A stretch of 58,884 nucleotides of DNA from Myxococcales bacterium. Its GTDB lineage: Bacteria; Myxococcota_A; UBA9160; UBA4427. Position 1 is the stretch's first letter. Each line of letters begins with the position of its first letter. The notes beneath the pieces are model-generated. The model was not told the DNA's origin. It saw only the letters and a list, made by a program, of their open reading frames with translations, and did no database searches. The stretch is from assembly GCA_022563535.1 (NCBI GenBank), contig JADFNE010000025.1, forward strand, positions 1-58,884, given 5' to 3'. Positions 173 through 41,262 of this stretch are shown piece after piece. The translations under genes and the position numbers were made by a program.

Positions 173-883
173 TTAGCCAGGTATTGCGGAGAGGTCGATT
201 AGACCGCGTCTGCGCCAGCCTTTGTTGAGGAGCCAGCTTGCTGCCTTGGCGACTCCTACTACTTCCTGAGTGGCTGCCTTCACTCGCAAGCTCTCAGAGC
301 TTGCGCGCCAGCCGTCGAACTGGCTGCCCGAAGAGGCCTCGTCGATCTTCACCGGCGGCGCATGCCCGTTCCGCTGTTTGAAGTGCTTTCGGATATTGAG
401 AAGTACGTAGCGAAGCGCGTTTCGCACCTGTGTGGGGGACGTGAGAAGCTGAACATGATAACGGCCTGCAATCACCTTACCGGTGCGCTTGAAGACACGA
501 TTCACAGCCAATGCAAACCGAGCAGCAATCGACTTCATGCCCCGGGAGAGGGCATCCTGAGACTCGGCCTCAACGATCATGTGAAGATGATTGTGCTGGA
601 TGGAATACTCAACCAACCGAAAGTCGCCGCGCTCACACCCCTGGGCGAAGGTCTTCCGCACTTCCATCACGAGTGATCGTTGCCGAAGGTTCGAGAGCCC
701 CTTTACAACGCGCAACGTCACATGGGCAGGAGTGAGTTCATTGAAATTAGATCGCTGTCGATGAGGCACTTGGCCCCGCACCAACCGCTTGGCACCAGCC
801 CCTTTGCGCGGGCCGCCATGCCCAGAGGTCATGCGCTTCTGCATGACGAAGTCAGCGAGTTCGAGCTGCTTGATTACTGCCAT
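173..883 (-). CDS. REP-associated tyrosine transposase (RAYT, Y1_Tnp family)
   Basis: The protein has 236 residues. It carries the HUH metal-binding motif HNHLH at residues 97-101 and a candidate catalytic tyrosine, Tyr142, in GRYH. These are the two hallmarks of Y1 single-strand DNA transposases. The N-terminus has the GGPRKGAGAKR basic stretch followed by HVTLRV (54-59). The C-terminus ends with a WLLNKGWRRRG block. Both are familiar in the chromosomal RAYT branch. Such enzymes nick and rejoin single-stranded REP hairpins and are usually single-copy and domesticated. The flanking inverted repeats agree with that role. The start at 883 gives the longest frame; a Met at residue 14 or 18 is possible. 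The frame is intact, so the protein may be functional. Confidence 0.85.
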   Translation of the reverse strand: MAVIKQLELADFVMQKRMTSGHGGPRKGAGAKRLVRGQVPHRQRSNFNELTPAHVTLRVVKGLSNLRQRSLVMEVRKTFAQGCERGDFRLVEYSIQHNHLHMIVEAESQDALSRGMKSIAARFALAVNRVFKRTGKVIAGRYHVQLLTSPTQVRNALRYVLLNIRKHFKQRNGHAPPVKIDEASSGSQFDGWRASSESLRVKAATQEVVGVAKAASWLLNKGWRRRGLIDLSAIPG

Positions 884-2954: not shown

Positions 2955-4640
2955 ATGCGGCCTAGTCCTTTGCGTCTGATGGACCATCGCGAGTTTCCGG
3001 TGCTCTACGTCGACGATGAACCCGACAACCTGCGAATTTTCGAGCTGACCTTCCGACGAGATTTCAAGATCCTGACGGCGGCGAGTGCAGAAGAGGGCCT
3101 CGAAATATTAAACGACAACCCGATCGCCGTCGTGTTGTCGGACCAGCGAATGCCGGGGATGACCGGCGTTGAGTTCCTGGCACGCGTGCGAGAGATCGAT
3201 CCCCAGACCATTCGCATGCTGGTCACAGCCTACGGGGACGCAGAAACCCTGGGCGTCGCGATCAACGATGGCAGCATCTATCGCTACATCGCCAAGCCCT
3301 GGTCTCCTGATGATCTGGGCATGGCCCTGCGACGCGGAATCGAAGCCTACGCCCTGGACCGCGAGCGCGATTCGCTGATCCGGGAACTCACGCAGCTCAA
3401 CCAGCTTTCGAGGAATTTACATAGGGAACTGGATCTCGAGCGAGTGATCGATGTATTGCTGCAGGCTATCCACGAAGAGTTGGAATTCGACGGCGTGGCA
3501 CTGTTGTTCTTCGACGAATCGGGCGACCGACTCCGCTGGGCCGGGGCGGAGCCTCGCGACGAGGTCGCCGTCGAAATACAGAAGCTCGAAATCCGCCGCA
3601 GCAACGCACGCGAGTTCATCGAAGATCTCCAACGCGGTTCGACGCGGACATTGCGCGCCGAACAAGCGCAGGATATCCCTCGCGTCTTGCGCGACTGGCT
3701 GACCGAAGTGTCGGCAGACGAAATCTTCGTTGTCCCGCTTCGCGGTCCGAGCGGAGTGATCGGTGCGCTGGCGATAGACAATCGCAGCGGTGGCAAACGC
3801 TTCGGGGCCGACGACCAGATGTTGCTCGAAGGCATCGCGACCCAGGCAGTGATCGCGATCGAAAACGCGCGCATCGTCGCGGCCCTGCGCACAGCCCAGC
3901 ACCACGTGCAACGCGCTGACCGGCTCGGAACCCTCGGCACCCTGGCGGCCGGCCTCGCTCACGAAATCAACAATCCACTGGTCTCGATTCAGACCTTTCT
4001 CTCGTTGGCCCCGGAGAAGCGCAATACCCCCGACGACACGGAGTTTTGGCAGACCTATCACCAGCTGGCCTGCACCGAACTGGATCGCATCCGCGGGCTG
4101 GTCTCGAGCATGTCGCGACTGGCTCACGGGGGTACCGAGCGCGGCGAACCCGGCCAGGTGTGTCTTTCGACCATGGCTGAAGAAGTTGCGGTGTTACTTC
4201 AGGCCGAAGTGCAGGACGCGGGCATTCAATTGGTGCTCGACTGTGAGCCCGGGACGCCGCCGGTCTTTGGCGTGAGTTCGCACCTTCAGCAAGTCATGCT
4301 GAACCTCGTATGCAACGCGATCGCGGCAACACCTGAAGGGGGAGAAGTCGCCATTCGGGTGTCCCTCGACAGGGATGGAGAACGCGAGACGGTGTGTCTC
4401 CTCGTCGAGGATTCGGGCATCGGGATGGACGAAGAGAATCTCGAGCGGATCTTCGATCCCTTCTTCACCACCAAGGATCCCGATCAGGGAACGGGTCTGG
4501 GATTGATGATTACCGATCGAATCGTGCGCGATCACGACGGCTCGATCGAGGTGAGAAGTCGTCCCGGTGAAGGGTCGCGCTTCTGGGTTCGGCTGCCAGT
4601 CAAAGCCCCAATCGGTTCCGCAGAACTGCCCTCCGCTTGA
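2955..4640 (+). CDS. receiver-GAF-histidine kinase (atypical hybrid sensor kinase)
   Basis: A 561-residue signalling protein. An N-terminal receiver domain has the acidic pair in VDDEPD and phosphoacceptor Asp63 in LSDQRMPG. It is followed by a GAF-like domain (about residues 155-310), a dimerisation/H-box with His336 in GLAHEINNP, and an HATPase_c domain with an N-box (NLVCNAIAA), DSGIGM, FDPFFTTK and a GTGLGL G-box. No membrane segment is visible, so it is cytosolic. With the receiver at the N-terminus, it probably takes phosphate or a signal from another kinase before acting on its own targets. The start chosen is the ATG at 2955, preceded by GGGGAGG with 5-bp spacing. An in-frame ATG at 2901 lacks this. 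No cognate regulator is adjacent. Confidence 0.85.
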   Translation: MRPSPLRLMDHREFPVLYVDDEPDNLRIFELTFRRDFKILTAASAEEGLEILNDNPIAVVLSDQRMPGMTGVEFLARVREIDPQTIRMLVTAYGDAETLGVAINDGSIYRYIAKPWSPDDLGMALRRGIEAYALDRERDSLIRELTQLNQLSRNLHRELDLERVIDVLLQAIHEELEFDGVALLFFDESGDRLRWAGAEPRDEVAVEIQKLEIRRSNAREFIEDLQRGSTRTLRAEQAQDIPRVLRDWLTEVSADEIFVVPLRGPSGVIGALAIDNRSGGKRFGADDQMLLEGIATQAVIAIENARIVAALRTAQHHVQRADRLGTLGTLAAGLAHEINNPLVSIQTFLSLAPEKRNTPDDTEFWQTYHQLACTELDRIRGLVSSMSRLAHGGTERGEPGQVCLSTMAEEVAVLLQAEVQDAGIQLVLDCEPGTPPVFGVSSHLQQVMLNLVCNAIAATPEGGEVAIRVSLDRDGERETVCLLVEDSGIGMDEENLERIFDPFFTTKDPDQGTGLGLMITDRIVRDHDGSIEVRSRPGEGSRFWVRLPVKAPIGSAELPSA

Positions 4641-13359: not shown

Positions 13360-14726
13360 GCAGAACCGGCAAGAAGCTGTTTGGAACCGATGGCGTCCGG
13401 GGCGAGGCGAACGTCTATCCGATGACCGCCGAGGTGGCACTGGCGCTCGGCCAGGCGATCGCATTTGTGTTTCGCGGGCGCGGCGGGCGAGACAAACACC
13501 GCATCCTGATCGGCAAGGACACTCGGCTTTCCGGATACATGTTCGAAGATGCCCTGGCGGCGGGAATTACCTCGATGGGTGTCGATGTGCTTCAGGTGGG
13601 GCCGATGCCCACTCCGGCGCTGTCGTTCCTCACCACCGACATGCGTTGCGATGCGGGCGTGATGATTTCCGCGAGCCACAATTCCTATGAGGACAATGGG
13701 ATCAAGTTCTTCGGTCAGGACGGCTTCAAGCTCGCCGACTCGATCGAAAGGCGCATTGAAGATTTGTTGGGTTCGGAAGAGCTGCGTGCCGGGCTCGCGA
13801 CATCGGACCAATTGGGGGCCGCTCGGCGTATCGATGACGCCGCCGCTCGCTACATAGTGAAGCTGAAGAGCGGGTTTCCTCTGGATCGCGACCTTAACGA
13901 TTTTCGCATCGTGCTCGATTGCGCAAATGGCGCGGCGTACAAGGTGGGCCCGGTGGTCTTGTGGGAATTGGGCGCGGACGTTCACAGCATGGGGATCGAA
14001 CCCAACGGTCGCAACATCAATGCGGATTGCGGCTCACTGTACCCTGAAAAAATGGCCGAGCGAGTCGAAGAAGTCAGTGCCGATATAGGGATTGCGCTCG
14101 ACGGGGATGCAGACCGGGTGGTCCTGGTCGACGAACGGGGAAAGGTTTTGGACGGCGACATGTTGCTCTCGCTGTGTGCGCGGGACATGAACAGCCGCGG
14201 TTGTCTGCGCGGCGGCGGCGTGGTCGCGACGGTCATGAGCAACCTCGGCCTCGAAAAAGACCTCGAAGGCCAGGGCCTGAAACTGCGCCGCACCCAGGTG
14301 GGCGATCGCTATGTGGTCGAAGCCATGCGAGAGCACGGTTATAACTTGGGCGGCGAGCAGTCGGGCCACTTGATATTCCTGGACCACGCCAGCACTGGCG
14401 ATGGCCTGAATACTGCGCTCCAGGTTCTGAGCATCATGGCACGGACTGGAAAAAAGCTTTCGGAATTGATCGAGGGCTTCCAGCGCTTTCCCCAGGTCTT
14501 GCTCGGTGTTCGCGTAGTGGAAAAGAAGCCGATCGAATCGCTGCCGAGCGTGCAGCAGGCCATTCGAGAAGTCGAAGCGGAGCTGGGCGACCGCGGTCGT
14601 GTGTTGATCCGCTACAGCGGCACCGAACTCCTGGCCAGGATCATGGTCGAGGGCGAAAGCGAAGACAACGTTCAGGCAATTGCGCAGCGTCTGGCGGAAG
14701 AACTTGCCCGCGCTCTCGCGGCTTGA
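13356..14726 (+). CDS. glmM: phosphoglucosamine mutase
   Basis: A 456-residue alpha-D-phosphohexomutase converting glucosamine-6-phosphate to glucosamine-1-phosphate on the way to UDP-GlcNAc. KLFGTDGVRG is at the N-terminus. The catalytic phosphoserine is Ser107 in SASHN. The metal-binding loop DGDADR lies around residue 250. The sugar-binding GGEQSGH and the phosphate-binding RYSGTE near the C-terminus complete the four-domain signature. The start codon overlaps the ybbR stop (ATGA). In the cdaA-cdaR-glmM arrangement, GlmM can inhibit CdaA directly, which links wall synthesis with c-di-AMP. That link is inferred here from synteny. Confidence 0.97.
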   Translation: MSRTGKKLFGTDGVRGEANVYPMTAEVALALGQAIAFVFRGRGGRDKHRILIGKDTRLSGYMFEDALAAGITSMGVDVLQVGPMPTPALSFLTTDMRCDAGVMISASHNSYEDNGIKFFGQDGFKLADSIERRIEDLLGSEELRAGLATSDQLGAARRIDDAAARYIVKLKSGFPLDRDLNDFRIVLDCANGAAYKVGPVVLWELGADVHSMGIEPNGRNINADCGSLYPEKMAERVEEVSADIGIALDGDADRVVLVDERGKVLDGDMLLSLCARDMNSRGCLRGGGVVATVMSNLGLEKDLEGQGLKLRRTQVGDRYVVEAMREHGYNLGGEQSGHLIFLDHASTGDGLNTALQVLSIMARTGKKLSELIEGFQRFPQVLLGVRVVEKKPIESLPSVQQAIREVEAELGDRGRVLIRYSGTELLARIMVEGESEDNVQAIAQRLAEELARALAA

Positions 14727-34895: not shown

Positions 34896-34955
34896 TCGCC
34901 AGGCTCTTCGCCAAGCGCATTGCCAAGCCCTCCGCCAAGCCCTTCGCCAGGTAGG
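34896..34955 (+). repeat. 12-bp tandem repeat upstream of the MoxR-type gene
   Basis: Five 12-bp units with core CGCCAAGC run without gaps: 34896, 34908, 34920, 34932 and 34944. They end just before the TAGGAG ribosome-binding site of the next gene, so they form most of its 5' leader. Confidence 0.75.
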
Positions 34956-34976
34956 CAACACATAGGAGCGTTTTCC

Positions 34977-35969
34977 ATGTTCGATAGTGTTGATCGCGTC
35001 GTCATCGAGCTGGGAAATCAGGGCTATGTGTGCGACCAGCGAATCGCGACTGTCGTTTTCCTCGCCCAGAAATTGGGCAAGCCCGTGCTGATCGAGGGGC
35101 CGGCCGGGGTCGGCAAAACCGAACTGGCCAAGGTCGTTGCCACGGCTCTTGACCGCAAACTCATTCGTCTGCAGTGCTACGAAGGCCTCGACGAAGCCAA
35201 GTCGCTCTACGAGTGGGAATACTCGAAGCAACTCTTGTATACCCAGTTGCTCAAGGATCATGTCAGCGAGGCGATGGCCGGGGCGAAGAACCTCGCCGAA
35301 GCTGCCGATCGCGTCGCCGCCCAGGAGTCGGTGTTCTTCTCCGAACGATTTATCGTGGCGCGTCCGCTGATGCAAGCGATCACCTCGGAAGTTCCGGTGC
35401 TGTTGCTGATCGACGAGGTCGACAAGTCCGATCCGGAATTTGAAGCCTTCCTGCTCGAAATTCTCTCCGATTTTCAGGTCACGGTCCCCGAGTTGGGGAC
35501 GATCAAAGCTGTCCAGATCCCCCTCGTCATGCTGACCTCCAACGATGCCCGAGAATTGAGCGACGCCCTCAAGCGGCGCTGTCTCCACCTCTGGATCGAC
35601 TATCCCAGCGAAGAACTCGAACTGAGGATCCTCGACCAGAAGGTGCCGGAGATCGACAAGCGTCTGGCGCAAGATCTGGTGAGCTTGATGCACAAGATCC
35701 GCAATCTCGACCTCAAGAAGGTTCCCTCCATCAGTGAAACTCTCGATTGGGCGCGTGCGCTGCTCGCGCTGAACGCAAGCGAACTCGACGAGAAGATGGT
35801 TACCGACACCCTCAACGTGATCCTCAAGTATGAGGGCGATATCAACAAGACACAAAAAGCGCTCTCGAAGCTGCTCTCGGAAAAGGCGGCCAAGGCTGCC
35901 GGAAGTGATGCGCAGACCGTCGAGTCGCCCGCGCCCGCGTCGCCCCAGAAAAAGGGAGTGCTCCACTGA
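34977..35969 (+). CDS. MoxR/CoxD-type AAA+ ATPase
   Basis: A 330-residue AAA+ protein of the MoxR family. The Walker A motif GPAGVGKTE is near residue 42, Walker B is LLLIDEVDKSD, and a sensor-1 LTSNDAREL and a sensor-2 arginine region follow. The start at the ATG 34977 has TAGGAG upstream. Together with the VWA protein that follows after 2 bp, it forms the MoxR-VWA (CoxD-CoxE) chaperone pair. Such pairs insert metal cofactors or remodel enzyme complexes. In carbon monoxide dehydrogenase loci they mature the Mo-Cu centre, but no CODH genes are here, so the client is unknown. Confidence 0.9.
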   Translation: MFDSVDRVVIELGNQGYVCDQRIATVVFLAQKLGKPVLIEGPAGVGKTELAKVVATALDRKLIRLQCYEGLDEAKSLYEWEYSKQLLYTQLLKDHVSEAMAGAKNLAEAADRVAAQESVFFSERFIVARPLMQAITSEVPVLLLIDEVDKSDPEFEAFLLEILSDFQVTVPELGTIKAVQIPLVMLTSNDARELSDALKRRCLHLWIDYPSEELELRILDQKVPEIDKRLAQDLVSLMHKIRNLDLKKVPSISETLDWARALLALNASELDEKMVTDTLNVILKYEGDINKTQKALSKLLSEKAAKAAGSDAQTVESPAPASPQKKGVLH

Positions 35970-35971
35970 GC

Positions 35972-37390
35972 ATGCAGCGCAAGGTGCTGGAGTTTGCGAA
36001 CTTGCTTCGCAAGAGCGGGATTCGCGTTTCCGTTGCTGAAGGGATCGACGCTTTCGAAGCACTGGACGTGTTGTCGATCGACAATCGCGAACTCTTCAAG
36101 AACGCCCTGCGCACGACCATGGTCAAGCGCGGCGACGAGATTTCGACCTTCGACCAGATCTTCGATCTCTACTGGTCCGGCTTCTACGACAGCCTGCGTG
36201 ACTCGTTCGGCGCTGTGGGCGACAACATGGCGTCCATGGATATCGACCTGGACGCTTTGATGAAGCAGATCACCGAGATGCTCGCCGAGATGGACGGCGA
36301 TCTCGATCTCGGCGAACTCGCCAAGGCGCTGCTGACCCAGGATCTCTCCCAGCTCGAAGGCATGATCCGCGACGCGGCCCAGCAAGCGGGCACCGGCAAT
36401 ATTGAAAACATGCTCCAGGTGGGCTTCTTCAGCCGCCGTACCGTGGAAGGCATGGGGATGGACGGCGCGGGCCGCGAACTCGAAAGCCTGGCGACGCGCC
36501 TCGAAGAGGCGGGGATGTCTCCCGAACAAGTGCAGGCTCTGCGCGAGATGATCAGCGCGATGATGGAGAGTCTGCGCAAAGTGGTGCGGAGCTTCACCGA
36601 GCGCGAACTCCAGACCCAGAATCACGACTACATGGAAAAATTTCGCCAGGAGATGCTCACGGAGAAGAGCTTTTATCACCTGACGGAAGATGAGATCGCC
36701 CGCATGCGCGAGGTGGTCCACCGGCTCGCCCAGCGCATCAAGAATATTCTCTCGATCCGACGTCGGCGCGACAAAAAGGGCAAGCTCGACCTGCATACCA
36801 CCCTGCGCCGCAACATGGCGACCGGGGGTCTGCCGTTCAAGGTGATCTACAAACATCGCCGCAAGGAGCGTCCCAAGCTGGTGATCCTGTGCGACGTATC
36901 CTCGTCAGTGGCCAATGTGTCGCGCTTCATGCTGCAGTTCATGTACAGCCTGCAAGAAGCCTTCACGCGCATTCGCTGCTTTGTTTTCGTGTCCGATCTC
37001 GGGGAAGTGACGCCGGTCTTCAAGAATGCGGATGTCAGCGGCGCGATCGAGAAGGCCTTGGAAGGCGGCGACGTGATCAACGTCTACACGCGCTCCAATT
37101 TTGGTCTGGCCTTCAATATCTTTTGGCGCGACTACTTGTCTGCGGTCGACAAGCGAACCACGGTGTTGATCCTCGGCGACGCGCGCAACAACTACAACGA
37201 CGACAAGGCCTGGTGCTTGCGCGACATCCAGGCAAAGGCCAAGAACGTGGTCTGGCTCAATCCCGAGAGCCCGAGTGCCTGGGGCTTCGGCGACAGCGTG
37301 ATGAACCGTTATCTGCCCTACACCGATATCGCAGAGGAATGTCGCAACCTGCGACAACTTGCCAAGGTGGTCGACTCGATCGTTCTTTGA
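35972..37390 (+). CDS. CoxE-like VWA domain protein
   Basis: A 472-residue protein. A helical N-terminal region (VLEFANLLRKSGIRVSVAEGIDAFEAL) is typical of CoxE/VWA_CoxE. A long acidic and helical middle follows. The C-terminal von Willebrand A domain has the MIDAS motif DVSSS in LVILCDVSSSVANVSRF, a later FVFVSDLGEVT, and DARNNYND. The metal ion at the MIDAS would mediate client contact, while the upstream AAA+ ATPase provides energy. The two genes are 2 bp apart and certainly co-transcribed. The gap after this gene holds the candidate antisense-strand small RNA. Confidence 0.88.
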   Translation: MQRKVLEFANLLRKSGIRVSVAEGIDAFEALDVLSIDNRELFKNALRTTMVKRGDEISTFDQIFDLYWSGFYDSLRDSFGAVGDNMASMDIDLDALMKQITEMLAEMDGDLDLGELAKALLTQDLSQLEGMIRDAAQQAGTGNIENMLQVGFFSRRTVEGMGMDGAGRELESLATRLEEAGMSPEQVQALREMISAMMESLRKVVRSFTERELQTQNHDYMEKFRQEMLTEKSFYHLTEDEIARMREVVHRLAQRIKNILSIRRRRDKKGKLDLHTTLRRNMATGGLPFKVIYKHRRKERPKLVILCDVSSSVANVSRFMLQFMYSLQEAFTRIRCFVFVSDLGEVTPVFKNADVSGAIEKALEGGDVINVYTRSNFGLAFNIFWRDYLSAVDKRTTVLILGDARNNYNDDKAWCLRDIQAKAKNVVWLNPESPSAWGFGDSVMNRYLPYTDIAEECRNLRQLAKVVDSIVL

Positions 37391-37449
37391 GGTGTCTTCC
37401 CTCGCGAGTCCGCACTTGTTCCCCATCGCCGCGCGCCGAGCCCCAAAAC

Positions 37450-37670
37450 GAGAAAACGCCCCGCCGGCCTTGATGGCCAACGGAGCGTTCGACAGGGGGA
37501 GGGCGGTGGACTCATTATGGGGGGTGAGAGGTTGGACATTTCCATTAGAAATGACCAATCCACCGCCGCTCCGAAACCCGAAAACTCCTCTTCAAACTCG
37601 CTTGCGACCGTTTGGCCCACTTGCGAACCGTGTTCTGCCAAGTCGGCTCGAGGCTGCCGCGACCTCGATG
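37450..37670 (-). ncRNA. candidate small RNA of about 220 nt on the minus strand
   Basis: The 507-bp gap between the CoxE-like gene and miaB has a complete transcription unit on the minus strand: a TTGACA/CATAAT promoter at 37704-37677, and a terminator at 37489-37453. Between them are strong secondary structures. TCGAGG/CCTCGA forms a 5' hairpin (37648-37668). A perfect 9-bp stem joins 37502-37510 and 37559-37567 and encloses a 10-bp hairpin at 37532-37558 with one mismatch. No convincing open frame with a start and ribosome-binding site fills it. It does not resemble 6S, tmRNA, RNase P or SRP RNA as far as I can tell. The family is unknown. Confidence 0.5.
37453..37489 (-). terminator. rho-independent terminator, minus strand
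   Basis: Read on the minus strand, AACGC pairs with GCGTT, then CGG with CCG, then GGCC with GGCC around an ATCAA loop, with small mismatched internal loops. It is followed by TTTT, CTCG and another TTTT. On the plus strand no T-run follows the hairpin, so it is oriented to the minus strand. Confidence 0.6.
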
Positions 37671-37676
37671 GAACCC

Positions 37677-37704
37677 ATTATGTAGTGCGCGGCAGATTTG
37701 TCAA
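37677..37704 (-). promoter_or_regulatory. consensus-like sigma70 promoter, minus strand
   Basis: On the minus strand TTGACA (37704-37699) and CATAAT (37682-37677) are separated by 16 bp. This is the closest match to sigma70 consensus noticed in the window. It points away from miaB into the candidate small RNA. Confidence 0.6.
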
Positions 37705-37897
37705 ACACGATTTTGAAACCGTGTAGCCAAAGGGGAAAAAGCCATGTGAGTTCAGCCCCTTACGGGCCTATATCCCAACCGATCGCAAGTCGATTTGGGG
37801 CGGCAACCGGCTCCGCGCCAGTGGGAGTGGGAGCGAGGATCCAGTAGTCTCCGCCTCCCTGCGATCCCACCTCCAACCCGTAGTTTTGGCCGAGTTC

Positions 37898-39310: not shown

Positions 39311-39420
39311 AAACCCGATACGCAGGTGAAGCGCAGTCGGCGGTCTGCCGATGAGCGCTAGCGAGTTGCGTCCCAAACGGGGTCAACGGCTACAGCGATC
39401 GTTCGCCAGGTGGGGTGGAT

Positions 39421-41262
39421 ATGGCAAAAGCACGCATATTGGCGGTCGACGACCAGCGCTACTTTCGCGAGCTGCTCGAAGGGCTGCTGCGCGAAGAGGG
39501 CTACGACGTCGAGACCGTTTCGAGCGCCGAAGAAGCCCTTCACGTCCTGGAGCGAGACACCTTCGATGTCGTGGTGACCGATCTGGTGATGCCCGGCGTG
39601 GACGGCACCGAACTGGTCGGCCGCATCAAAGAACGCCTTCCCGACCAGGATATCGTGATGGTCACGGGTGTCGTCGACGTCAAGACGGCCGTCGAAGCCA
39701 TGAAACAGGGCGCGACCGACTACATTCTCAAGCCGTTTGATCGCAATACGCTTGCGCGCTCCATCGAAAAGATTCTCCAACGCCGCCGCCTGGGCGACGA
39801 ACACGAACGGCTGATGTCGGAGAACCTCGAGTACATGGGCGTGCTCTCGCTCTACGAGCGCGCCACCCGCCTTTTCTCGACCCTCGCGGTCGAGCCCCTG
39901 GCAGAACGAATGATCGAGGGCTTGTGTCTCGAATCCCGGGCCCAGGGCGGGGTGTTGTGGATTGCAGAGGAACTCGGCAGTGATCGACTCCGGCTCGAAG
40001 GTGTGCGGGGCATCATCCGGGTGGAGGAGGAACGCGAGGAACTGCTCGCAGGCGATCTCGGCGAACCGCTCGAATCGCTGCTCAGTCCCGGACACGCGAT
40101 CATCATGCCCCGGCCCAACCAAACGGGCAACGCTTTGTTCGTACCCCTGCGCTTCGGAGGCGATCTGATCGGGCTTGCGCGTCTGACCGATCCTCTGGAC
40201 GAAATTGAATTTGGTGAGTCCGAACTCGCCTCGGTGGAAAAGTTTGGTGCATACGGAGCCACGGCGGTGGTCAACGCCCTGCGCTTTCGCGAGCTGGAGC
40301 GGCGATCCTTTCGCGACCCGACGACGCGGGCCTACACCCACGTTTTCTTTCAGGACGCGGTGCGAAACGAGATTCAGAAGGCCGCCCGCTTCGGTCGCTC
40401 GCTTTCGGTCGTCCACGTCGACGTAGGACCGGTTGCAAATCTCGTTCGGCGCGCCTCGGATGCCGAAATTTCGCGCACGGTTGCCAACCTGATCGAACAT
40501 CTGAGTGGGGCGCTGCGTATTACCGATCTTTTGGCTTCGCAAGACGCACGCCACTACAACATTTTGCTGCCCGAAACAGACGCTGTGGGGGCCGCCGTTC
40601 TGAAGCAGCGCATTCGCGAGTTGCTGGAAGAATCCGAAATTCTCAATTCGGCCTCACCCGAATCGAGCGAAGTGCTGGCCCTGGCGGCTGTGACGTATCC
40701 GACCGATGGCAGCCAAATGGAAACCCTCGAACTGGGCATCGAGGCACGGCTAAACCAGGACCGCAACATGTTGCTCCGCAGCCTGTCGACCGGAGAGCAA
40801 AGTTTCTCTCGCTCGATCGATCGCCTGCTCGAAGAAGGCGCGATGGAGCGAGCGGAGCTGAGCGCAGAAGCGACGCGCTTGCTGCTCGACGAGATTGCAC
40901 GCAGACCCAAGGATCGCGGTCTATTGTTCTTGTCCCCCAGCGAAGCCGTCGTGCCGGTGGTTCGCGAGGGACTCGCACGCTTGCGCGAACTGCAGACGAA
41001 GACTGAAATCGTATTGGTCGGTGAGGATCGTCAACTGGCCGAAGAATCCGGTGGGGTGACGTGCGTGCCCAGCCATCGAGCGGGGACGGACCGACCCTTT
41101 GCGCTCTACTACGGGGAGGGACCCGTGTATGCGATGGTGACGGCCCATCAGCCCGACGCGGACCGCATACGTCTGTTCCACACAGAGGATCGCAGCCTCG
41201 TCGAACACCTGGCGTTCCAGCTCCAGAAGGACCTCGGGCTGCCGTTGGGAGCACCGGCCTGA
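39421..41262 (+). CDS. receiver-GAF-degenerate GGDEF signalling protein
   Basis: A 613-residue cytosolic protein. An N-terminal receiver has an intact phosphoacceptor Asp (VVVTDLVMPG) and the invariant Lys in LKPF. A GAF-like domain occupies about residues 140-290. Then comes a GGDEF-fold region in which the catalytic GGDEF is replaced by DARHY before NILLPETD, so diguanylate cyclase activity is not expected. The remaining 170 residues form an unassigned C-terminal domain. The start is ATG at 39421 behind AGGTGGGG. The next gene starts inside its stop codon (TGATG), so the two are translated together. It may act as a phospho-regulated binding platform. Confidence 0.8.
   Translation: MAKARILAVDDQRYFRELLEGLLREEGYDVETVSSAEEALHVLERDTFDVVVTDLVMPGVDGTELVGRIKERLPDQDIVMVTGVVDVKTAVEAMKQGATDYILKPFDRNTLARSIEKILQRRRLGDEHERLMSENLEYMGVLSLYERATRLFSTLAVEPLAERMIEGLCLESRAQGGVLWIAEELGSDRLRLEGVRGIIRVEEEREELLAGDLGEPLESLLSPGHAIIMPRPNQTGNALFVPLRFGGDLIGLARLTDPLDEIEFGESELASVEKFGAYGATAVVNALRFRELERRSFRDPTTRAYTHVFFQDAVRNEIQKAARFGRSLSVVHVDVGPVANLVRRASDAEISRTVANLIEHLSGALRITDLLASQDARHYNILLPETDAVGAAVLKQRIRELLEESEILNSASPESSEVLALAAVTYPTDGSQMETLELGIEARLNQDRNMLLRSLSTGEQSFSRSIDRLLEEGAMERAELSAEATRLLLDEIARRPKDRGLLFLSPSEAVVPVVREGLARLRELQTKTEIVLVGEDRQLAEESGGVTCVPSHRAGTDRPFALYYGEGPVYAMVTAHQPDADRIRLFHTEDRSLVEHLAFQLQKDLGLPLGAPA

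Follow-up and report, generated by a model that had tools for sequence, protein, structure and literature searches.

The mycobacterial small RNAs (sRNAs) B11 and 6C are C-rich and do without Hfq, which mycobacteria lack, and B11 acts through its C-rich loop (PMC12395582). The sX13 RNA of Xanthomonadaceae (RF02232) likewise does not need Hfq, and depends on its own C-rich motifs and on G-rich ones in its targets (PMC3771888). Myxococcota are a group without an hfq homologue, and the myxobacterial sRNA Pxr, from this phylum, has three stem-loops and a predicted sigma54 promoter beside pxrR (PMC5684412).

The element described here is encoded on the minus strand of a 58,884-base stretch of DNA (the window) and resembles each of these RNAs in part. 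It shares with 6C/B11 of Actinobacteria a C-rich unpaired loop, a stand-alone arrangement with a predicted terminator and a lineage in which Hfq is lacking (PMC12395582). However, the C-rich loop through which B11 acts belongs to its terminator hairpin, whereas the element has one long loop of fixed sequence inside an asymmetric internal loop. The sX13 RNA is of similar length, strongly structured, equipped with C-rich loops and independent of Hfq (PMC3771888), but it is composed of three stem-loops with short CCCC motifs, and common descent with the element is not evidenced. Pxr is also an sRNA found in Myxococcota. In contrast to Pxr, the element has a sigma70-type promoter and neighbors miaB, and identity with Pxr was rejected on the basis that no sigma54 promoter lies next to a pxrR gene.

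No Rfam family reached threshold in searches at gathering and permissive settings, in agreement with a preliminary description of this DNA, which had recognized no known RNA class by eye. The best sub-threshold match is sX13, which scores 21 bits when the full model is used (gathering score 50), at E = 0.088 for a search of 541 bases. The RF01066 model, which we take to represent 6C RNA, does not match the element. The element is best filed as a new stand-alone sRNA family that works perhaps like 6C or sX13, with membership in either by analogy only. This apparently undescribed family is conserved through a class of uncultured Myxococcota in which Hfq was not found.

A predicted sRNA gene and its distribution

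The preliminary description proposed a minus-strand sRNA with its own promoter and terminator. A real stand-alone sRNA gene at positions 37445-37704 is now strongly supported, because sequence, structure, promoter and synteny are conserved class-wide, and the element is almost certainly a functional RNA gene. It combines a promoter, an intrinsic terminator, a noncoding sequence and a conserved structure. The gap in which it lies does measure 507 bp (37391-37897), given the miaB start listed with the other features in Table 1.

The RNA would be transcribed from the predicted promoter, with a start near 37670 as judged from the position of the -10 element. This promoter was earlier called the best sigma70 promoter in the window, and it is indeed the sole site that matches at least 10 of 12 positions; shuffled sequences contain 0.2 sites per window at 11/12 or better. 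Among homologues, 48 of 75 have a -35 element of TTGAC type and a -10 element close to TATAAT, separated by 16-18 nucleotides and at most 200 nucleotides upstream (with a 16-nucleotide spacer in 32 of the 48), compared with 1 of 3649 control segments. Because the distance from promoter to core varies from 14 to 171 nucleotides among relatives, the core appears to be the functional unit. A 5' hairpin reported earlier sits in the leader and is not conserved.

The core comprises an outer stem that encloses a hairpin, at the coordinates first proposed; the inner hairpin has 10 pairs with one U.U mismatch. Folding z scores are -5.2 for positions 37450-37704 and -7.0 for the core. A scan for terminators did not exceed chance overall (3 found, 2.5 expected), but the stem of the predicted terminator, previously noted as a hairpin with T-runs, covaries across relatives.

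Table 1. Positions of the predicted RNA gene, its parts, the neighboring genes and the viral hairpins
Feature	Position	Strand	Remarks
Sigma70-type promoter TTGACA-16-CATAAT	37677..37704	-	-35 TTGACA 37704-37699, -10 CATAAT 37682-37677, 16-nt spacer; 11/12; conserved within genus; variable distance in homologues
Non-conserved 5' leader	37578..37670	-	From predicted start (~37670) to core; length variable among relatives
Conserved sRNA core	37445..37577	-	~130 nt including terminator and tail; covariance model 131 bits; DNA identity 76-96% through order
Outer stem, 5' arm GGAG-C-GGCGGUGGA	37559..37572	-	Pairs with 3' arm (GGCGGUGGA 37567-37559 with UCCACCGCC 37510-37502)
Outer stem, 3' arm UCCACCGCC-CUCC	37498..37510	-	Pairs with 5' arm
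Inner hairpin UUGG-U-CAUUUC...GAAAUG-U-CCAA	37532..37558	-	Inside outer stem
C-rich loop CAACCUCUCACCCCCCA	37518..37534	-	Inner 16 nt AACCUCUCACCCCCCA essentially invariant
Predicted intrinsic terminator stem-loop	37454..37490	-	16-bp stem; T-rich tail to ~37445
AAA ATPase	34920-35969		Paired with VWA_CoxE gene
VWA/CoxE gene	35972-37390	+	VWA_CoxE protein; flanks gap
miaB	ATG 37898	+	Flanks gap
Response regulator with GAF and GGDEF-like domains	39415-41262		Follows miaB
L179 hairpin	3133-3210		Between WYL_2-domain ORF and phrog_1574 gene
L232 hairpin	13605-13720	-	16-pair stem unrelated in sequence to host RNA
L231 hairpin	681-738		Perfect 12-bp stem just before serine recombinase gene

Paired positions were compared in an alignment of 75 sequences. 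In this alignment, 97.9% of cells pair, and changes on both sides of a pair affect 18 pairs and 188 cells, against 10 pairs and 38.8 cells in shuffles, although the alignment was fitted to the model and the pairing counts are to be read with that caveat. Slid controls all fall far below the real pairing values. Within the terminator, 11 of 13 pairs have changed on both sides across the 75 sequences. When judged against a tree-aware null, which is approximate and was computed with our own script, two terminator pairs lie beyond every null value. In the core, the outer-stem pair 18-92 stands out by the same null (rank p = 0.0002), and most core pairs are too conserved to test.

Of 61 relatives searched at the DNA level, 55 gave matches, almost always to the core. 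The covariance model, built from 30 of the matching relatives, finds one strong match per genome in 76 of 91 genomes of the class that we take to be GTDB class UBA9160, with scores of 61-145 bits for full-length copies. Elsewhere in the phylum, covariance matches reach only 29-42 bits, which is noise level. Candidate members outside the class with such scores (L227, L228 and L229) were read and rejected, as all are without the loop.

Ten class genomes that lack the RNA were checked. In five, miaB was not matched at the threshold applied, in four the gene is cut short at or close to the end of a contig, and one has an intact miaB. This last genome (G037; L216, G037:C162), a member of the order, has no recognizable RNA upstream of miaB, and genuine loss is likely. 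Named records that contain the loop and a matching 3' arm comprise 68 contigs, all of them MAGs or assemblies, many of which apparently coincide with class genomes already counted. Their labels are Myxococcota, Deltaproteobacteria, Proteobacteria, bacterium and, once, Spirochaeta, and include UBA9160 and SZUA-336.

The invariant loop and its viral copies

The loop is found in all 75 aligned sequences, in one of them with an extra C. The exact 16-mer AACCUCUCACCCCCCA occurs once per genome in 76 of the 91 class genomes and in none of 288 other Myxococcota genomes, and the reversed 16-mer has zero occurrences in both sets. The loop presents a C-rich unpaired motif of the kind present in sX13-like sRNAs, and its invariance over 16 nucleotides extends further than an ordinary sRNA seed needs. 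Such an unchanging loop makes its partner experimentally approachable.

The 17-mer CAACCTCTCACCCCCCA is also found in three IMG/VR contigs, L179, L232 and L231. It is always on the 3' side of a long stem (16, 16 and 12 pairs, respectively), and none of 500 shuffles of the flanks gave a stem as good. A fourth contig, L275, keeps 15 nucleotides of the loop with an 11-pair stem. Among the 79 IMG/VR contigs that contain the 14-nucleotide core of the loop, stems are longest in these four. Nothing comparable encloses the core in the remaining 75, which were set aside as chance background for want of a strong stem. The loop is constant among the four contigs, while the stem sequence differs: it partly matches the host RNA in L179 and L275, and in L231 and L232 it is unrelated. 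The presence of the loop on different stems is natural evidence that function resides in the loop.

The contigs carry recognizable phage genes. L179 encodes a sliding clamp, a clamp loader, a dUTPase and an endolysin, and has T4-like replication genes. The surroundings of the hairpin in L275 are as in L179, and the following gene is common to both, as judged by matching sequence. L232 has portal protein, terminase and head-protease-like genes, and L231 encodes an exonuclease as well as a serine recombinase. Known phages in INPHARED gave no match to the L179 hairpin by blastn, a search that is weak at 67 nucleotides. We infer that phages with loop hairpins infect this class, and their copies of the loop suggest that the RNA matters during infection. 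The viral hairpins are reminiscent of phage-encoded sRNAs and RNA sponges, in that these are phage-carried RNAs that act on host circuits. However, the viral hairpins keep an unbroken 15- to 17-nucleotide loop of a chromosomal RNA, with a stem of different sequence.

Possible modes of action

By analogy with described C-rich sRNAs, the RNA is most likely a chaperone-independent, trans-acting sRNA that base pairs with its targets, a reading to which we give very nearly even confidence. The stem would be a scaffold that holds the long C-rich loop open, and the loop would be the active part, pairing with G-rich stretches in target mRNAs and needing no Hfq, in the manner of 6C/B11 and sX13. Phage hairpins that present the same loop would presumably join or blunt the same control. 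Sequence evidence shows a conserved gene, its structure and strand, the invariance of the loop and the phage copies; transcription, the action in trans, the base pairing and this role of the phage copies we infer. Hfq was found in none of the 91 class genomes, whereas 5 of 14 control genomes were positive. The lack of Hfq in the class fits with chaperone-free C-rich sRNAs such as sX13 and B11, and the element offers a test of sRNA action in a Myxococcota lineage without this protein.

The earlier suggestion of a trans-acting regulator is plausible. The invariant C-rich loop does suggest such a role, but target tests were negative and no target was found. Allowing at most one mismatch, the 13-nucleotide complement GGGGTGAGAGGTT is not enriched in 41 genomes, with 152 matches (about 37 of which are the RNA gene itself) against 165 for the reversed control, both totals being summed over per-genome rows. 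Similarly, pairing of the loop with start-codon regions of 605 crudely called genes in three genomes is no better than that of permuted loops. A small regulon would be missed by both tests.

A serious rival to base pairing, which we consider possible but rather doubtful, is that an RNA-binding protein specific to the class recognizes the loop within its stem and is sequestered or guided by the RNA. CsrB-type RNAs or 6S RNAs would be precedents, and the phage hairpins would be decoys or operators for the same protein. Sixteen essentially invariant unpaired nucleotides on a stem of exchangeable sequence argue for protein binding, as does the lack of enrichment of complementary sites. Also, the hairpin immediately precedes the same phrog_1574-type gene in the related contigs L179 and L275, a position that could suit an operator. 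However, no candidate binding protein was identified, the single site per RNA is unlike multi-site sponges, and C-rich loops are typical of base-pairing sRNAs.

A wider proposal covers both kinds of partner. The RNA, near-universal and single-copy in the class, may act via its fixed 16-nucleotide loop and a protein or RNA partner, and phages of unrelated lineages may mimic only the loop so as to seize that partner. We advance this tentatively, as somewhat short of an even proposition.

It is improbable that the phage copies are not functional mimics but attachment-site remnants left when phages integrated into the RNA gene. The serine recombinase gene just downstream of the hairpin in L231 is consistent with such an origin. 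However, all the stems are complete and perfect and they differ in sequence, an outcome not expected from recombination with the host gene. In addition, the examined stretches of L179, L232 and L275 contain no recombinase, and none of the 91 class genomes has a second copy of the loop.

Strand, coding potential and gene neighborhood

Among 74 homologous loci, 73 have the RNA gene and miaB arranged head-to-head, and the remaining locus begins 60 nucleotides upstream of the RNA. Given this constant divergent neighbor, a plus-strand cis-regulatory leader for miaB might be considered in place of a minus-strand RNA, but we regard this as very improbable. The promoter, the T-tract and the G.U pairs all indicate the minus strand, and any gene on that strand is set apart from the RNA by the terminator. 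The ratio of G.U to A.C combinations is 116:13 overall and 70:1 in the core, which supports the minus strand as the RNA.

Still less probable is a diverged 6S RNA (RF00013) or another promoter mimic that binds RNA polymerase. Like the element, 6S RNA is a conserved single-copy bacterial RNA, of about 130-220 nucleotides, and RF00013 finds no 6S RNA in the genome from which the window comes. However, the folds differ, the element has no 6S match at E<=10, and the CATAAT sequence in the loop is not conserved. Moreover, the two RNAs coexist at separate loci in two carrier genomes that have genuine 6S RNAs (G041, contig 39 versus 368; G065, contig 25 versus 69), and 6S RNA was excluded on these grounds. 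As to 6S RNA itself, the RF00013 model finds none in most of the class genomes listed, the window's own (G000) among them. It is common in the phylum, and in these genomes it has probably diverged.

A small protein-coding gene can be dismissed: mechanically called ORFs cross the element, but conservation follows the stems, and a conserved protein frame, which the preliminary description had asked about, is excluded because the core spacings vary out of frame and stops interrupt every one of the six frames in at least 34 of the 75 sequences.

On the side away from miaB, the RNA gene usually converges with vwa, moxR and ribBA in loci that stretch that far. The pair of VWA_CoxE and AAA ATPase genes adjoins the RNA through most of the class. 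The response regulator gene that follows miaB is likewise found in most loci that extend far enough to include it.
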